A stretch of DNA of 64,000 nt, taken from the NCBI GenBank assembly GCA_018398765.1, contig JAHBMJ010001616.1, positions 5,001-69,000 on the forward strand, given 5' to 3'. A model generated the notes under the pieces. That model was not told where the DNA came from. It saw nothing but the letters and a program-made list of their open reading frames with translations, and ran no database searches. This DNA comes from Chromera velia. Lineage: Eukaryota; Sar; Chromeraceae. Below are positions 4,034 to 39,200 of the stretch, piece after piece. Numbering within the stretch: position 1 is the stretch's first letter; each line of letters begins with the position of its first letter. Position numbers and translations under genes: made by a program.

Positions 4034-6804
4034 GACAGACAGAGAGACAGACAGACAGACAGATGTACCGAGAGATCCATCCACCACCCTCCCAAATCTC
4101 TCTCACACACACAACAGCCGACAGACCCACCCAAGCCCGCCCGTGCCCTTTCCAGCAGCGCCACTGCCCCCTGAAAGTCTCCAGTCTCAAAGCAGCACTT
4201 CCCCTGCTCAAGGTACAGACGCCACCCCGGAGGGTCCCACAGAGACAGGGACTGCACACAGGTGGCAGGGGCAGGCAGACATATGGAACATCCGCTCTCT
4301 CACACACACAATTTCAGACCGAAGAAATGAACACACGGAGAGCAGGATGTCTCCGCAGATGTAAAGATTTGGTTTCAGTGACGGAACAGAAAATGAAGGA
4401 ACGGGCCGCTAATTAATTCATGAGGAGCAGCGTGGTGAACAGGAAGACAAATGCTTCTCAAAAGGCCATTCCGCTCCCTTCTCCCTCTGTCGGTCCCTTT
4501 CTCTCCGCTTGCCAGCCAGACTGACGTCAACGAATATTTGCAGCTCGTCCTCTTCCGGTCTCGCTGTGTCTGCGAATGTCATCACAGAGCTTGCTCTCGT
4601 GTGCATCCTTCTAATCTCCTCTTTCCGTGCCCTCTCTCTGTCCCTGTCCCTCTCCCTGACAACCAACGCCGTCTCCATCCCCCTCTGGAATGCAATCAGA
4701 CGCTCTCCTAAGGCCTTCGCCTCCGCCACCTTGCCCTGCTCTCTCAGCAGTCTCAACGCGTTCCACCTGCATGCATATAGATGCAGTTAGTTTGCCGACA
4801 ATGGGCGCAACGGAATACATGAACATTCCTCCACACATCCGCCTAAAAATACTGTCCTCCATTCGAACCTTGATGCCAAGCAACTGACGCACGCAAGGAT
4901 GCCAAGCAACTGACGCACGCAAGGATGCCAAGCAACTGACGCACGCAAGGATGCCGAGCAATTGACGCACGCAAGGATGCCAAGCAACTGACGCACGCAA
5001 GGATGCCGAGCAATTGACGCACGCAAGGATGCCAAGCAAGTGAATGCATGAAGTCACAGATACGACGACGAACAGACCGACCGATCGGACGAAGCATCAA
5101 ATGCAAAGTGAGTAGAGAGGTCTTATCACACACTGGGCCATGTCACGAATGCGAATGAAAAGCAGAATTTATTTTGTTTCACTGGATCTCCGGCGAGCAA
5201 ACTCAACAAAAAAAAAGAAATCGTAGTTGTGAGCTGACCCACTGTGACAGCCAGCCTAGAGGCCGGCCTAAAGAGGAAAATGGATCGATGTGTTTCAACC
5301 CCCCCCTCCCCCCCCCCAAAAAAGAGAGAAGAAAACAAAGTTACTGACTGACTGACAGGGACTCGCGTCCCACTTTCAACATCAACCCCTCGTCGTCGTG
5401 TCTCCAGCCCTTCAGACAGAAATAGTTATTCATACAACAGATGCACATGCAGTAAATGCATACATACGTCAACGCACACACACGCATGTGCAGATAGATA
5501 TACTTCCCCCCCCCCCGCCCCCCTCTCTCTCTCTCTCTTGCGCGCGCGCTTCTGCACACACATACGCTCCTCTGCACCCTGCACGTCCGTCCCTTCACAT
5601 TGGTTCTTTGTCCGTCCATTGCCCCCCCCTCCCTTCGCCTTTGTTCTTTCTCCTCCGGCCTACCATCTCACGGATCGCTGCACTGCCTGCATGCGTTGTT
5701 GTGTATGTGCATGTTTGCTTGTGTGCCTGTCAATTAATGACTCTCTTCACACGTGGCTCGACTCCCTTCCTTTTCTCTTTCCCGTCTTTCTTTTCAGACC
5801 TCTTTCCTTCACTTTTATCTCCATTTCTTTTCTGTTGCCGCCTCTTCATTCCAACTGCTGCTGCAGGGCATGATGTAGACATGACAACATCCAGACTGAT
5901 GTGATCAGCCCATGCACCCACCTCAGGGCCTTTCCATGGCTTTGGGATCTCTGTGACGTCCCGGAGGGGGGCGGCGTTGCGCTGCCACACCTCCTCGAAT
6001 TCTGCGCTCTGCACACAAGCCAGCAAACAGAAAAAAAAAGGAAGGAGGGAAGAAAGCATGAAGGTAGAGAGAGAGAGAGAGAGAGAGAGAAAGAAAGAAA
6101 GAAGGAAAGAAAGAAAGAAAGAAAGAAAGAAAGAAACAGAGAAGTATATTCACATATGGGGTATTGCTGGGGGACTTTTAGATGTCATTTCTTCCCTTCC
6201 CTTCCCTTGCCTTAACTGCATACCTCAATCAATCATGGATCCATCCATTCACCAACAGTCGTCCTCGGCCCTCTCCAAACAGAAGACAATTAAGTGAATG
6301 GAGCATCTTATGCGTCGAAAGAGCCTCTTCAGATCACTTTTTTCTGTTCTGTCTGCATGCCAGACTGACAAGGTACCCTCCTTTACAAAACCCCGCAGCC
6401 CCCCCCTTTGCACCTAGTTGACTGACCTGAGTGAATTGCAGGAGCCACCAGAGGGTCTGGTCCCGTCGGCCCATGCGGAAGAGAATGCGCGCAATGTCGT
6501 AGGCAGGGGGGGGGGTCACCGAGAAGAAGGGCGTCTTGGCGGCTCGACGCTGAGGGGAAGAACCAGACATAGGGGGACAGAGGGAGGGAGGGAGGGAGGG
6601 GCAGTCATGGTGCATGACATGATCGATACATCTTTCCTTTTCTGGGTGTTCAACCACATATGCAGCTAGAGGAAAAATGTTTTGTCTTCTTTTTCTCGTG
6701 CATAGTTTTGGCACTGTTCCCTCTCCCTTCAAGGTCGCTTCTGCCTCCTCAAGTATCCGCAGCGACCAGCCAGCAGACTTCCCACATCCAGGCAAGAATG
6801 AATG

Positions 6805-9800: not shown

Positions 9801-12800
9801 GCGAGGACGCTTGAAGTCAAGAAAAAGTGGAATGGACATCGATCCCAATATTGCAGCTAGGAATCTTCCCGCTCACCTAGAAGGACACTGTACCGCCTCA
9901 AAAGCTCAGCATATTCTCCTGGCCCCTCAGGCACTTTGCTTGTTTATTTTTTCATTCAAACCCGAAGAAAGGCATGAGACGAAACGCACCAACATACAAC
10001 ACAGACCTGAGAGAATGCAGGGTGCAAAGGGGGTACACAGAGCGAAGAGGAAGAACAAGCACTTCCATCCCCCAGGCACGAGCATCAACAAAAGTTGGGC
10101 CCTGGTCGTGTCAAAACTCGCTCCCTGCAATTCGATTCTGCATATATCAGCAGTGCATACATGCATGCACGTACAGGGAGAATTGTGGATTGAAGTGCAA
10201 ACAAATTCATTCATCATCATCATCAGCAGAGGTGGTATGGGAGTCTCTCTCTCTCTCTCTCTCCTCGAGATTCATGATGCCAGCCATGCACTCTTGGATC
10301 GACAGAAAGCGATCTCAATGGGACTTGTTTACGGAGGCTTGAGCAGCAATGCCACAAAACCCCAAAAAAATGAAAAAGAGGCTGAAGGAGATACACACAC
10401 ACACACACACATTCCCGCGTAATCGACGAGAGCCTCAGTGAAGAGACGGCAGAGAGAGAGAGAGAGAGAGAGACGGTTCCTTCTGCCCATCTTCTGGCGA
10501 CGCCTCTGTTTCTCCAAATATGCATGTCACAGCTAGGCGTATGGACATACACATGCACACAGAGCGACCAATCATGCACGCTCCATCATCTATGATCATG
10601 CAGTCCTGATTCCAAAAAAGCCTTTCTATTCTAACACACTCACTCAACTGACTGACTGTTCCTCCACCCACGACAGGGGGGCCTTCAACTTCACTCCAGC
10701 CCTTCGTCCGACGAGTCCGGGAGTGAACAGGAGCCCGCAGAGTCCGACCACGAAAGCGAAGGGAACGAACAGGTTCAGGAGACGAACAAACAAATGCCAG
10801 AAAGACAAAAGGACACCTGTGGATTTCCCTCTCAACCCATCCCAACCACGTGAAGCAAACGACCGGAACACATCCTCAATTCGATACAGAGGGAGTACTA
10901 CAAGACTTGCAGAGAGGAACGGCAGAGCTAGAGCAAGTGTGACGACTAGACACGAAATACTAGTGTCAATTGTCAACCACCCCCAGCAGAGGCCGACAAG
11001 CGCCGTGCCGACCCCCCCCACTAGTCTCACAACCGACGCTGCAGGGATTTTCTGTTCAGGCGGAAGCCAAAACGGAGCCAGACACGCTAGAAGAATGGAC
11101 ACAACAGAGCCCAAAAACATCCAAACTTGGAATACCTGAAAGCTCGCACACGCCCACTGTTGTGAAAGTGGATGTGCCCCGGTTGCATTCCCTCCCCCTT
11201 GCGTGTCAACGTTCTGTCCCGAATCCGCATGGCAAGGTCTGAGGGGGATCAGTGTTTGCTGCTGTTCTTCTTCCTGCTTTTTCTTCTTTGCCTCTGCCCT
11301 TTCCTTCTTATCCTTCTGTTCCGTTTCGCTTTTTCCTTCCGCAGCTTTCTTCTTCTCAGGAGATTCTGCCTCTTTCTTCTTTTCCCCTTCTTTTCCCCTA
11401 TCGCCCTCCCCCCCCCCCCCNNNNNNNNNNNNNNNNNNNNNNNNNNNNNNNNNNCCCCCTCCTTTTGCAGATTCAGACGACGCTTCCGCATCAACAACCA
11501 GTCTCCTCCGCACACCTCTCAACGGACCCGAATCTCCTTCCTCCATCATCCTTTCCTTTACGCTTTCCGGGAGCACTGTATACGACAGACTTTCCGGGGC
11601 CAGCGTTGGCATATCCGAGAACACCCCTATCAAAGCGACGTTTGGGACGTTCGAGAAAGGGGGCGGCAGGTTCAGTTGCTCCCCGAGACTCTGGAGATTC
11701 GGCAAGTGCTTCCACTCCACCACTGCCAGGAGGACGGCTGCCCCAACGCCAACGAAGATGAACCCCCGAGCAACGCCGTGGAGGAGGCAGGGGACCCGAA
11801 AGAAATTGCCGTAGGCAGAGACGCGGTGCCTGCATTTATTTTCATACAGAATTCTTTTTCAGGAAAATAAAAAGAAATCTGTATGAAAAGAATTCCGTAT
11901 CAAAACAAATGCAGGCAGAGACGGGGTGCCTGCACTCAGGGAATACCTCGTAAGTCAGCACCTTGAGGTTCGTTTGAGTGCACAAACAAACGTCACACAC
12001 AGAAAACGTCACAAGACAGGTGAGGCTGAATGCTTCGTCTGGAGAAACAACAAAGGGCGACAGGAGCGAGAGAGGCGGCAGAAGAACATTTATCACACCC
12101 CCAAAACAACAGAAAGAGACAGGAGGGAGGCAGCTAGGAACAATGAATACAGGGAGGGAGAGAGTGTGGGTAGAAACGAAACGAGGGATCAAACAGTCCT
12201 CCCTCCCTTCCTCCCTTCCTTCCTTCCTTCCTTCCTTCCTTCTCGGCATAGGAAGGAAGGAAGAAAGCGGAAAGAGAATGTCCGACAACCCATCAACCTA
12301 GTGAACCTACCGTGGAAAGACCTCAATCGGAGACTCCCCCCCCAGAACACCGACGATGTTGGCATTCAAACTTGATTGGAGAGAAAGAGAGCTCCCGAGT
12401 CCACCACCACCACCCGAGAGGAGAGCGGGGTCCCCCGGACATTTGGCCCTGCAGGTACGTGCATGCATTCATGCATGGCCAGACAGACGGATGCATATTG
12501 GCAGATTGAAAAGGGAAGACAAAGAAAGAGACGGATCTGTTCGCCCCTCCACCCGTGACTCATTCAAAAAGAGACAGGCACTTGCGGTCAAGATCTCAGA
12601 AAGCGACAATGAGAACGCCAGATACAGAGTCGACCTGCCATTTGAAGGGACCACCAGACACCTGGTCAGTCATGTGGGAAACTTCCCTCATGCAGTTGGT
12701 GAGGGAGCAAGACGTAGTGCCCTTTCGGTTTGGTTACTGAGAAAGAAGGACCGGAGAGACGAGACGAGACGGGACGAGACACACTACTGACATCGCAGGA

Positions 12801-13278
12801 ATGAGAGCAGCAAACAAGCAAGAGAATCAGACAGACTCCGACATGACAGAAGAAGAAAACATATTAGGGGACCACCCGTGTAGGTACGGGGAATTAATTA
12901 AACTCACCGTCGCAGCGCCTCCACCCCCCTGTTGAACCCGACGAACGCGGCAAAGAACACAAAAAAAACTGTGAGCACCCCGACAGTAACGTTCTCCGTC
13001 ACGGCTGACGCCTTCTCGGAGAGACCGAGACGGTCTACTCTGGGAAGGAAGAGCCACACAGCAAGAATGCAAATCACAAAGGAAATCCACATGCACGAAC
13101 TGATGGAGCACCATCTGGTGTGATGCACAGGCTGGTAGGGGTACACGCCGGCTCTCCCGGTGACCCTTGCTGCTGCCGGAGGTCTTGCCCCCGTCTGGCT
13201 GGATTGTAAGGACCCGTCTCTACCGTCTCTTTCCCCCGACAACCGACGATACTCAAACCCCCGCTGGTCAGTTGCCAT
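1..13278 (-). CDS. Giant membrane-TPR protein gene, 3' end beyond left edge
   Basis: Hand-built model; exons in transcript order 13278-12908, 12448-12311, 12025-11930, 11829-10672, 10381-10333, 9144-8392, 8160-7030, 6549-6427, 6008-5922, 4766-4526, 4251-4131, 3772-3643, 3432-3255, 2688-1127, 908-<1. Reading phases agree at every junction except 5922/4766, where a small exon is probably missed. The product is at least about 2,350 residues. The start is ATG at 13278 (MATDQRGFEYRR). Exons 1-6 hold several hydrophobic segments, for example WISFVICILAVWLFL and VWMFLGSVVSILLACLAPFW, plus a lysine/glutamate-rich stretch around the N gap. From 9144 on, TPR-like helical pairs appear, such as LYLEQGKCCFETGDFQGAVA. 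The exon at 2688 is serine/glutamate-rich. The last exon stays open to base 1 and includes DADTYAYIFQADTHLSVVG. I do not recognise the family. A membrane-anchored TPR scaffold is inference; two adjacent genes split near 10 kb is the main alternative. Confidence 0.6.
3436..3480. repeat. (ATTC)n array
   Basis: About ten head-to-tail attc units next to the 3' splice site of the exon at 3432-3255; intronic. Confidence 0.9.
3899..4063. repeat. (CAGA)n arrays split by a unique core
   Basis: Two CAGA arrays flank a short non-repetitive core, actatatgtttcttcttc, at about 3969-3990. The same core sits beside another CAGA array at about 61384-61402. Both copies are in introns of minus-strand genes. 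A long plus-strand open frame here is only the repeat read as Asp-Arg-Gln-Thr. Confidence 0.9.
4872..5043. repeat. 26-bp minisatellite, about 6.6 copies
   Basis: Unit gatgccaagcaactgacg plus cacgcaag, repeated head to tail. Two variants occur, caagcaactg and cgagcaattg, in the order A-A-A-G-A-G. It lies in an intron of the giant minus-strand gene. Confidence 0.95.
6060..6140. repeat. (GA)n/(GAAA)n microsatellite
   Basis: Pure purine array in the intron upstream of the exon at 6008-5922. On the gene's strand it forms a pyrimidine tract. Confidence 0.9.
9204..9300. repeat. Short direct duplication upstream of an exon
   Basis: The string gaacagacgacagccgaca occurs twice, at about 9207 and 9278, roughly 71 bp apart. 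It lies in the intron 5' of the exon starting at 9144. No function is seen. Confidence 0.7.
11421..11454. other. Assembly gap of 34 N in a poly-C tract
   Basis: The gap lies in an exon of the giant membrane-TPR gene, between poly-C runs that encode glycine on the minus strand. Phase on both sides agrees with a gap of 34 bases, but the true length is unknown. Confidence 0.95.
11813..11934 (-). mobile_element. Introner-like element with TIRs inside a coding exon
   Basis: A 22-bp direct repeat (11813-11834 and 11913-11934, one mismatch, offset exactly 100 bp) flanks a short AT-rich insert. The insert's ends form an inverted repeat of about 28 bp with three mismatches (11831-11858 against 11913-11886). 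On the minus strand the host reading frame enters one copy of the repeat and resumes in phase from the other (codons R-H-P-V-S-A / R-H-R-V-S-A-Y). Removing exactly 100 nt (11929-11830) as a GC-AG intron restores an uninterrupted exon; left in place, the insert brings an early stop. Introners with terminal inverted repeats and direct repeats are known from dinoflagellate relatives such as Amoebophrya. That this copy is spliced is inference. Confidence 0.7.
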
Positions 13279-14012
13279 GATGCAGCAGCAATTCAAAGGA
13301 CAGGCGAAGAACGCGGAAGCCTTGGGAACTCGTGTCGGATGGGATGATTCAGAAAGAGCACACGCCCAGATTTCCTGCGGCGTCCACGTTGAGCAGGCAT
13401 CTTGAACTGACAGGCCTGTCGCGTAGGAATAAGAGCTTCCTTTTGAGCTGCTGCATGACTGCATGGCAGGAGGAAACGACCGAAAGGCAACAATCGGATC
13501 GAACATCAGTACCAATTACTGCTTTGCGCAGATACGCCGTCTCCTTTCAAGCGTCTCTGCATGCATCATTGCGGGAAGCTACAGAGGGCCCCGGCCGGCA
13601 CGCAGTTTTTTGACGTCACGCGGTGCATGCGGCCGGCGCGGCCGCGGCCGCGGGGCCCTAAAAGGACCCGGGGCCCGCATGAATGCTGAAAAATTGCTGA
13701 AAAGCATGGATCGTCTGACCTTCATACATGCATGCATGGCAGCATGCATATGCCACACTCTCTGACCTGATTCTATTCCACCCATCCACAGAGACTCGAT
13801 CTTGCATGCAGTGATGGGGCAAGTTCAAGACTTCAGCTACATCAGCGAGGAACAAGCAAAAACTTTTATGCCACTTTTTGGCGGAAGCTTCCCATCAAGA
13901 CGTTCTTTCTGGTTCTCCCATACAGACTCACTCAATCAGACTGGTTGCTGATTCGAACAGAGAGCGTATATACCACACAATACGTTTCTCGCTTCTTGTG
14001 AATTGCCCTCCA
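13279..14012. promoter_or_regulatory. Divergent promoter region between two head-to-head genes
   Basis: About 730 bp separates the ATG of the giant minus-strand gene from the start chosen for the plus-strand gene at 14013. It holds a very GC-rich palindromic block (about 13621-13672, with gcggccgcggccgc), a perfect TGACGTCA at about 13612-13619 of the type bound by bZIP factors, and several TGCATGCA-type motifs (13558-13566, about 13726-13737, about 13804). In Apicomplexa, TGCATGC motifs in promoters are bound by AP2 factors; the same use here is inference. Confidence 0.55.
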
Positions 14013-36270: not shown

Positions 36271-39200
36271 CTATATGGAAGTGACTAGGGAGGTGAACAC
36301 AGTACCTTCGCCGCGTATCTGCACTAACATGATCATCTCTTTAGATGTCAAAACTAACATTCTCGTCACCCTCACCAGAACGGCTGCTCTGATTGCTCTC
36401 ATTATCTGCAGGTGGTTGCGAAGGAGAAGGAGAAGGCGGTTCTGCCTCACTGCTCCGAATGAAGGCAAGCTGCACGCTGTTATCTTCGTCGCCTGAGGCA
36501 ATAACGTGAAGCTGGACCTGGGGGTCAACACACACAGAGTCCGTATTTGCATGTGCACCCTCCCCACTATTCTTTCTTTCCAGCTGCGGCGAAGAAAACA
36601 GCTCTGGCCTTCCTTCGGCCCTTTCGTGTCCGTCGGTCTCTGTGAAATCGTTTTGACCCGCACCTTCTTCCCCCCCTTGTGCGCCCGAGAGAAACAAGCT
36701 TCCTCTCTCCTGCATTTCCCTTCGAATCTCATGAACGTCCTTGAAGGTCTCCTCTGTCTTTTGACGAGCAAACTTCCTCAACTGTTCTGTTGACATCACC
36801 GCCTTCTTGTCCCCCGGCTCCCCCTCTGGGGCTGCAGGCACCACCCCCCCACTCTCCCCTTGATTGACGCCGGAGTTCTCATTCTGTCCGCTGCGGTCCA
36901 ATTCCCCAATTTCCATTCCCTCAACAAGGCCCTTCTCTCCCTCTCCCTCTCCTTCGTTTCCCTTTCCCCCATCTGCCTGACCTTCCGCTTCCTCTGTCTC
37001 AACTAGAGTGTCCAACCCCCCTCCCTCCTGCCTCCCAGACGCAGACACAGAGACGGAGACGGGGTCCTTGGGTTCGGATGTGGCGGCATGATGATCGGGT
37101 GTGTTTGGGATTGGAATGGGAATGCGGGGGCCGAAGGAGGTGAGTGACTCGGCAGGGCTGCCTGTCTGTGCGTTGGCGGTAGTGTTGTTGGCTGTGCGGG
37201 AGGTCGCAGTGGCTCTCAGACTTGCCCTGCACGCACGGACGTCAAAAAAGGCATTTTGTTTTTATGTGCTTGTCTTGATTCAGAGGACTAGTTGTTCTCA
37301 ACACCGCTATGAGAGAGCGACGCTCTGCACGATCAGTCTGTGCGGGCTGGCGGATCATCGGATAAGAATCTGAGAAAGTGCACGCTTCGCGTAGCCAGTT
37401 TGCATACGCTTCTGCTATTCTGTCGATCGTTTATTTCACTTTCAGCAATAAGCAAAACAAAAGAAACATGAAGACTCGCAAAAAAATATTTTTTCCCCTG
37501 TTGCTGTTGTGTCACATGTCAAAAGTCCGTAATTCGCACCAATCGCAAGCTCTGCTTATTCTCTACCAGCATTGGTTCGACCAAGTTTGACTGACCCAAA
37601 GTTGGCTATTCTCTTTGCAGCCGACTCTGCAACCCTCTGAGTGCGCAGAGCCCACAACTCAACTGCTGTTGAGATTGAAGCCACCTGCATGATCACATAC
37701 ATGAAAATACATGCATACATACATAATACATACATGAAAATAAACACAACTCAACTGCTGTTGAGATGGAAGCCACCTGCATGATCACATAATGGAAGCG
37801 AAGGCAGTTCAGTAGGGAAACACAAGAGAAGAAAACGAAAAGGGAGCACGAAAGGCCACAAGGCTTTCTTTCTTGGTCTGAGAGTTGAAGACTAAAGGTC
37901 CTCTTTGAATTCTTTTCGCTGCGGAAAAACAGGGTGCCATTGGATACACACGGCAAGAAGATCGTACAAAAGCATCACAGAAAGTTAGACGGAAAAAGAG
38001 AAAGAGAATGAATGCTGTTGGGAGAGGAGAGAAGATGCGCAGTGCATCCGTCTGCCCTCCGTGCACTTCTCACTGTGTGGGACGAGTGAGAGCAGATCGA
38101 GGTCCTGCCATGCAGGACACGAGCTTCTACCGAAATTGGGCAAACCACAGAAGTTTGTTCAGAAAGCACTGCACGCTTCAAAGAGGATACACTTATTCTT
38201 CCCCCTGACAGACCGACCAGATGATTCAGAATTTCAGAATCGATAGGGCTCAGTTGAGGGTCCCCTCCCCTTGCCAGTTCCCTCTCTTGAGTAATACGCA
38301 CAGGAAAAGAGAGTTCCAGACACCCAACGACCATCATTTCTCCGTCCTCTCCCTCAGCTCCCCCCTTCGCTTGCATCTCAGAACTGCATATCATGGCATG
38401 TTATCACATGAAGGCTAAAAGAGTGAAGAGAAGAAAAAAAAAGAAAAAAGAGATTTCCACGTAAGATAAAGAAACAAAGTGAATAAAAGGATACTCTCAA
38501 TGTCTCTGACTGAGGCAGACAGACAAACAGAGAGACAAGTAAGCAGAAACCACAGAGACGCAGAAAAAGACAAAGCCAGAGGCAGAGCAGCAAAGAAAGG
38601 GGAGGAGAAAAGAGGGTAAGTAAGTGCATGGACCGACCGACAGACAGACCGACAGACTGACTGACTGACTGACCGGATAATCTCCCGAATTTCGAATCGA
38701 CTCCGCATTCCTGCGGCGAGAGAGAGAAAGAACGAAATACAAAGATGATACCCACCCAAAGACGCATGCATTTAAAAAGAAAAAAAGAAAGAGGACGAGG
38801 AAAAGCAAGACGAGCCAGCAGAGAGAAACGCAATCAGTAAGAAAAACAAGTCTCCATCCATCCATACGAAACTCAACAGTCATCTACCTGTCCCTCCCAT
38901 TTTTGCTGACTGACCAACCTGTAGTCTTCATTGCCGACTGCCTGATGTGCTCCGCGTGTTTTCTGATGAACCTGCCCATTGGCAGGTCCTTTGCCACAGA
39001 GGGCATGTCCCTCTGGGCCTTCTGGAATCTCTTCCCGACAGCCGCCAGGGGGGGGGAGATGCGGATAGCCAGGGGGCGTACAATTATGGGTCTGTTCGTG
39101 TGGAGGTCCACCGAACTGGACCAGCTGCGAGAAGTAAAATCAGGTTCAGCACACGAGGAGAGAGGATCAGATCGACTCGATCGCTCAGTGAATCCCTTCA

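Follow-up and report, generated by a model that had tools for sequence, protein, structure and literature searches.

Structure of the inserted unit

The window, a stretch of 64,000 nt of Chromera velia DNA, holds a short insert with inverted ends between two copies of a direct repeat, open frames on either side of it, and a second such unit at a distance. The features are listed below in order of position; here and throughout, a slash marks the proposed splice boundary.

10644..11829, minus strand: open frame of the predicted downstream exon, HRVSAYGNFFRVPCLLHGVARG..., from frame and phase; holds an N run at 11421-11454
11813..11834, minus strand: host duplication, copy 2, TGCAG/GCACCGCGTCTCTGCCT, from the direct repeat and the in-phase join
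11831..11854, plus strand: terminal inverted repeat TGCATTTATTTTCATACAGAATTC, from sequence and the genome-wide family
11835..11912, no strand: 78-bp insert, strictly between the copies, from sequence comparison
11890..11913, minus strand: terminal inverted repeat, the minus strand's first arm, from sequence comparison
11913..11934, minus strand: host duplication, copy 1 (upstream on the minus strand), TGCAG/GCACCCCGTCTCTGCCT, direct repeat 21/22
11830..12907, minus strand: predicted intron of 1078 nt, GTGAGT ... TGCAG, the unit accounting for 100 nt, from sequence and phase
12908..13515, minus strand: open frame with the predicted upstream exon, ...GVEALR-CG/GTGAGT, from frame and phase
37653..37699, minus strand: second unit, copy 2, ATGCAG/GTGGCTTCAATC, followed by the open frame VASISTAVELWALRTQRV... 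to a stop, from frame and sequence
37700..37744, no strand: second unit, the 45 bp that separate its copies, with one end matched by the pattern, from sequence
37745..37791, minus strand: second unit, duplication copy 1 (47 bp), 46/47 identical

The two copies of the first direct repeat, AGGCAGAGACG(C/G)GGTGCCTGCA at 11813-11834 and 11913-11934, agree at 21 of 22 positions and are spaced by exactly 100 bp, while the inverted arms (11827-11858 and 11886-11917) are 32 nt long and 91% complementary; the original prediction of an insert with inverted ends between 22-bp direct repeats, offset by 100 bp, is thus confirmed. The conserved end of the family, TGCATTTATTTTCATACAGAATTC, occupies 11831-11854 and recurs less exactly at 11890-11913. 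Folded as minus-strand RNA the unit reaches -51.7 kcal/mol, where shuffled sequences average -21.1 (n = 200, z -9.6). The minus-strand stop-to-stop frames 12297..11842 and 11858..10644 fuse once one unit is omitted, and it is mechanically true, as had been claimed, that the frame enters one repeat copy and leaves the other. Upstream of copy 1 this frame has no stop for at least 66 codons, and it scores poorly as coding sequence except over its last 39 nt. AG/GC stands at the identical position in both copies, and the motif CTGAC at 11958-11954 is a possible branch site, lying about 25 nt ahead of the AG in copy 1. The run of 34 N at 11421-11454, in a C-rich stretch of the downstream-exon frame, is probably an assembly gap.

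The second unit (37653-37791) duplicates a likely 3' splice site ahead of a short terminal open frame, to judge from its sequence. At 4767-4785 there is a weak single match to the element end, without a significant direct repeat.

A palindromic family in the genome

The unit belongs to a palindromic family with well over a thousand copies in the genome, which fits a photosynthetic alveolate by its alveolin (11) and light-harvesting (58) matches. A genome-wide search for the 19-bp end, in which 3 mismatches were tolerated, returned 2,774 ends (1,431 + 1,343); the reversed pattern, as a control, gave 40 (22 + 18). BLAST with the window unit against the same genome gave at least 69 matches including the window's own, 40 of 158 candidates having been scored, and the two results together rule out a chance pattern. 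No exact match to the 24-base end pattern occurred in viral contigs, and no blastn match in phage records.

Two sets of loci were analysed. Set A comprised 39 stretches around BLAST matches, plus the window. Set B comprised 78 short stretches around exact ends; it is not a random sample of contigs, and likeness to the window copy was required at the end only. Of the 100 first-listed ends, 89 make up set B and 11 fall in set A or the window. In set A, 67 of 75 end clusters lay within a direct repeat scoring at least 36, where the shuffle maximum was 23 (n = 300). In set B, 84 of 89 exact ends lay within a unit scoring at least 30 (the shuffle control being that of set A only) and 5 had no significant direct repeat. 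Among the 67 significant clusters two pairs proved to be the same unit, which left 65, to which L021 and L023, just below threshold, were added by hand to give 67; one unit was then dropped for length or overlap, leaving 66. The 89 ends of set B yielded 81 units, or 72 without repeats longer than 66 bp and overlapping copies, so that 138 units (66 + 72) were analysed.

The duplication has a median length of 41 bp in both sets and is variable, with quartiles of 33-47 bp (A) and 29-48 bp (B). The unit, duplication plus insert, has a median of 109.5 bp (A) or 104 bp (B), and the distance between copies is typically about 50-80 bp (quartiles 52-77). Among the 118 of 138 units with equal-length copies, median copy-to-copy identity is 96.5% and 32 pairs are perfect; hence many of the insertions are probably young. 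An alignment of twelve inserts shows conserved 24-bp ends and a variable middle. At least three end variants (TATT, TACT, TTCT) occur among set A inserts. In 20 of the 29 set A units that could be scored the two ends have matching variants, where 6.2 were expected; set B, which was chosen by one variant, shows no excess (20/27 against 20.4). The outer flanks have no strong common sequence, and TGC(A) is over-represented where the duplication starts. Some loci, for example L030, L035 and L076, are arrays of duplicated units. The contigs of L076 and L097 share a flank and an array of one and the same unit; they may be alleles, or a single locus that the assembly divided.

Units adjoin coding exons

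Coding exons adjoin units of this family. Twenty peptides that overlapped a duplication and looked protein-like were picked by hand and compared with Pfam at E up to 0.1; 11 had a match and 9 had none. Exon peptides beside units matched Ras, PEP-utilizers_C, EGF_CA, MTHFR_C, Actin, ADK_lid and PEPcase, and in each of these the duplication was read as crossing one exon edge; the matches to Ank, Exo_endo_phos2 and NPC1_MLD were weak and that to Hydrolase was under the cut-off. In an actin-family gene (locus L041, PF00022 matches on the same contig) five records represent four sites, one being a tandem pair, and all four of the insertion sites found lie, by reading, on exon edges. Two 3' sites (TGCAG/GAAGG and TGCAG/ACTGG) and two 5' sites (ACAG/GTGCGTG and ACAG/GTGGGC) are duplicated there, one of the latter two being the tandem pair. 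Apart from exon-split actin-family genes, the genome contains an actin gene that occupies a single open frame (G000:C3985:50854-52146).

Training coding scores on long open frames was abandoned, one such score having been spoilt by N runs and another by simple repeats; the latter separated units from controls little: 14.9% of joined frames scored at least 5 against 12.2% of controls, and at 8 or more there were fewer than in controls. A hexamer coding model, which favoured low-complexity frames, was also discarded and a codon model used instead. This was built from 589 codons of exons recognised by eye, recovers 15 of its 16 training peptides, and was applied to flanks joined at the duplication, with random windows from set A loci only as controls.

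The edge of a coding segment falls within a duplication about three times as often as within a random window, and duplications rarely lie inside coding segments. The codon model placed 42 of 138 units as coding on one side (21 + 21), 3 on both and 1 otherwise, 92 being too weak to place; for 3,000 random windows the counts were 273, 205, 91 and 2,431. One-sided coding is thus found in 30% of units against 9% of windows (Fisher 7e-12), and the deficit of two-sided units is of modest significance (Fisher 0.033). Without near-duplicates, 40 of 130 units were one-sided; with training loci also removed (n = 108), 28 were one-sided, 3 two-sided, 1 other and 76 weak, beside 331 one-sided and 234 two-sided among 4,000 comparison windows. 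The two-sided count stayed at 3 when the other repeat copy, or hybrids of the copies, were used in the joins. A junction detector that also required a splice signal was positive for 19 of the 106 units whose flanks sufficed, compared with 4.1% of 2,000 nearby windows; outside the training loci it found 10 of 80, and in set B, where 40 of 72 units had enough flank, 5 of 40 (p 0.023).

Of the 138 duplications, 72 contain the splice-like motif TGCAG or AGGTNNG, compared with 17.7% of 6,000 windows; separately, TGCAG is found in 38% of duplications and 13% of windows, and AGGTNNG in 19% and 6%, while AGGC (30% against 24%) and GTRNGT (17% against 19%) are hardly or not at all in excess. The enrichment of 5'-site motifs is only weak in set B. 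The TGCAG excess may partly reflect a preference for TGCA, since TGCA is the element's own end and TGCAG is possibly favoured for that reason. The family is repeated within genes, and its tie to splice junctions is real.

A probable lengthened intron in the window

The original prediction was of an introner-like element. Its description stands in so far as the element is short, has inverted repeats and is flanked by a target duplication, and so does a relation to splice junctions. Intron birth within an exon is not supported as the rule: 42 of the 46 clearly coding units are one-sided, and with 3 of 138 two-sided and 92 unplaced, the units do not each appear as an intron newly made within coding sequence. 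It seems more usual that a splice junction already present was duplicated.

For the window itself the question turns on what lies upstream. A minus-strand open frame ends ...GVEALR-CG/GTGAGT at 12908, and its join to copy 2 at 11829 is in phase and gives RHRVSAYGNFFRV, whereas a join from 12908 to copy 1 runs into the insert and hits a stop. Because of this difference we favour the view that an old intron of 978 nt has probably grown to 1,078 nt, and that the 3' splice site it uses is likely the TGCAG of copy 2 (intron end 11830, exon start 11829). The in-phase join of the GTGAGT donor at 12907 would arise by luck one time in three.

Against this stands the earlier reading, in which the element landed within an exon and gave rise to a 100-nt GC-AG intron whose two splice sites lie in the duplicated host DNA. 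AG/GC at matching places in the two copies suits it, as does the upstream open frame, which is in the right frame and coding-like for 39 nt; it is this stretch, in the codon model, that makes the window unit one of the three two-sided units. We nevertheless judge it unlikely, given that only those 3 of 138 units are coding on both sides, that the upstream coding score is poor beyond the 39 nt, and that a GTGAGT donor joins copy 2 in phase. No empty site was seen, the window alone matching the flanks among the 40 of 156 candidates scored, and no second copy of the window gene was found in the genome at E up to 1.

Proposed origin of the family

Lengthening of an existing intron in the window fits a wider account, which we consider probable: a palindromic, MITE-like, non-autonomous element that makes long duplications at exon edges and lengthens existing introns, the insert at 11835-11912 being one copy. 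Insertion would begin with two breaks, widely and variably staggered (about 41 bp), and end with fill-in. Exon edges would be favoured as landing sites, perhaps as nucleosome linkers; introners are reported to show a linker bias in most genomes where it is predictable (PMC9860276), and a similar bias could put insertions at exon edges. Since the duplication carries the splice site along, one intact junction would remain and the gene would still splice correctly, the existing intron growing by one unit of about 105 bp. For the window this would mean that an intron of about 1 kb had its 3' splice site, TGCAG, duplicated, copy 1 leading to a stop in the insert and copy 2 keeping the frame. The varying duplication length disfavours a transposase with fixed stagger, and the symmetric ends disfavour ordinary retroposition.

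A bolder version, possible though we put it forward tentatively, has the element making its duplications of about 41 bp by an uncharacterised route and drawn to junctions of either polarity; it would be self-disarming, introns would grow stepwise, and fossil exon edges would be left inside them. It seems rather unlikely that insertion is instead random, with copies inside exons purged and copies at edges surviving through rescued splicing, junctions not being targeted at all. The depletion of exon-interior units is what a rescuing duplication predicts, and the 92 unplaced units may be intronic or intergenic, yet units at edges would then be expected near background instead of at more than three times that level, and the actin-family gene, with four of four sites at junctions, is by reading mostly intron.

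We also doubt that an RNA hairpin was copied in by target-primed reverse transcription. Duplications of variable length, such as those found here, are typical of LINE-driven insertions and of SINE-like retroposons; in one SINE1 class of Entamoeba most are 18-24 bp, with up to 29 in a listed case (PMC2996970). The asymmetric ends and A-rich or repeat tail of such retroposons are lacking: both ends are conserved and symmetric in the 12-row alignment, and no A tail was seen. Slippage of tandem repeats, or an assembly artefact, in place of mobility is very improbable, for although some loci are arrays and the assembly has gaps, the same ends recur in differing host sequence and the duplications are locus-specific except in arrays and at L076/L097. 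Intron gain by tandem exon duplication does not fit, the insert being a conserved family.

If insertion at exon edges does lengthen introns as proposed, it would provide a concrete route for intron growth, and a natural test of the choice between near-identical splice sites about 100 bp apart. Introners account for the birth of introns; the growth of introns, and the tolerance of insertions near splice sites, are less clear.

Comparison with known systems

Superfamilies of TIR DNA transposons each make a target duplication of fixed, short length. The present family resembles these elements and MITEs in being short, with terminal inverted repeats, no coding capacity seen and thousands of ends, and differs from them in the widely varying length of its duplication (quartiles as above). 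The combination of long, variable duplications with inverted ends lies outside the fixed-length rule of the known superfamilies.

The published systems that follow are compared on the basis of passages from each source. The IS1202 family also has inverted ends, and one of its subgroups makes unusually long duplications of 16-28 bp; it is bacterial, encodes its transposase, makes shorter duplications than those found here and is described there with no tie to splicing (PMC10132070). The repeats of Rogers and Bendich are direct repeats at or near intron borders, taken as traces of insertion; they measure 4-30 bp (mean 11.4) over 213 introns in several classes, and are presented there with no common element (PMC11782384). 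Judged by title and abstract opening, no paper listed in searches of openly available literature reports duplications of such length on splice junctions.

The introner elements of Amoebophrya are likewise hairpin inserts in an alveolate host, with direct repeats over the exon borders; those repeats are of 3-5 nt and many borders are non-canonical, whereas the borders read here look canonical (PMC7789003). Introners more generally share with the present family a short repeated sequence, inverted ends, a tie to junctions and splice sites drawn from duplicated host DNA. Where they carry TSD and TIR, duplications of 3-9 bp are reported for some of the characterised families, and an intron arises with each insertion (PMC9860276); here the duplications are about 41 bp, variable, and lie mostly, where placeable, on one exon edge.
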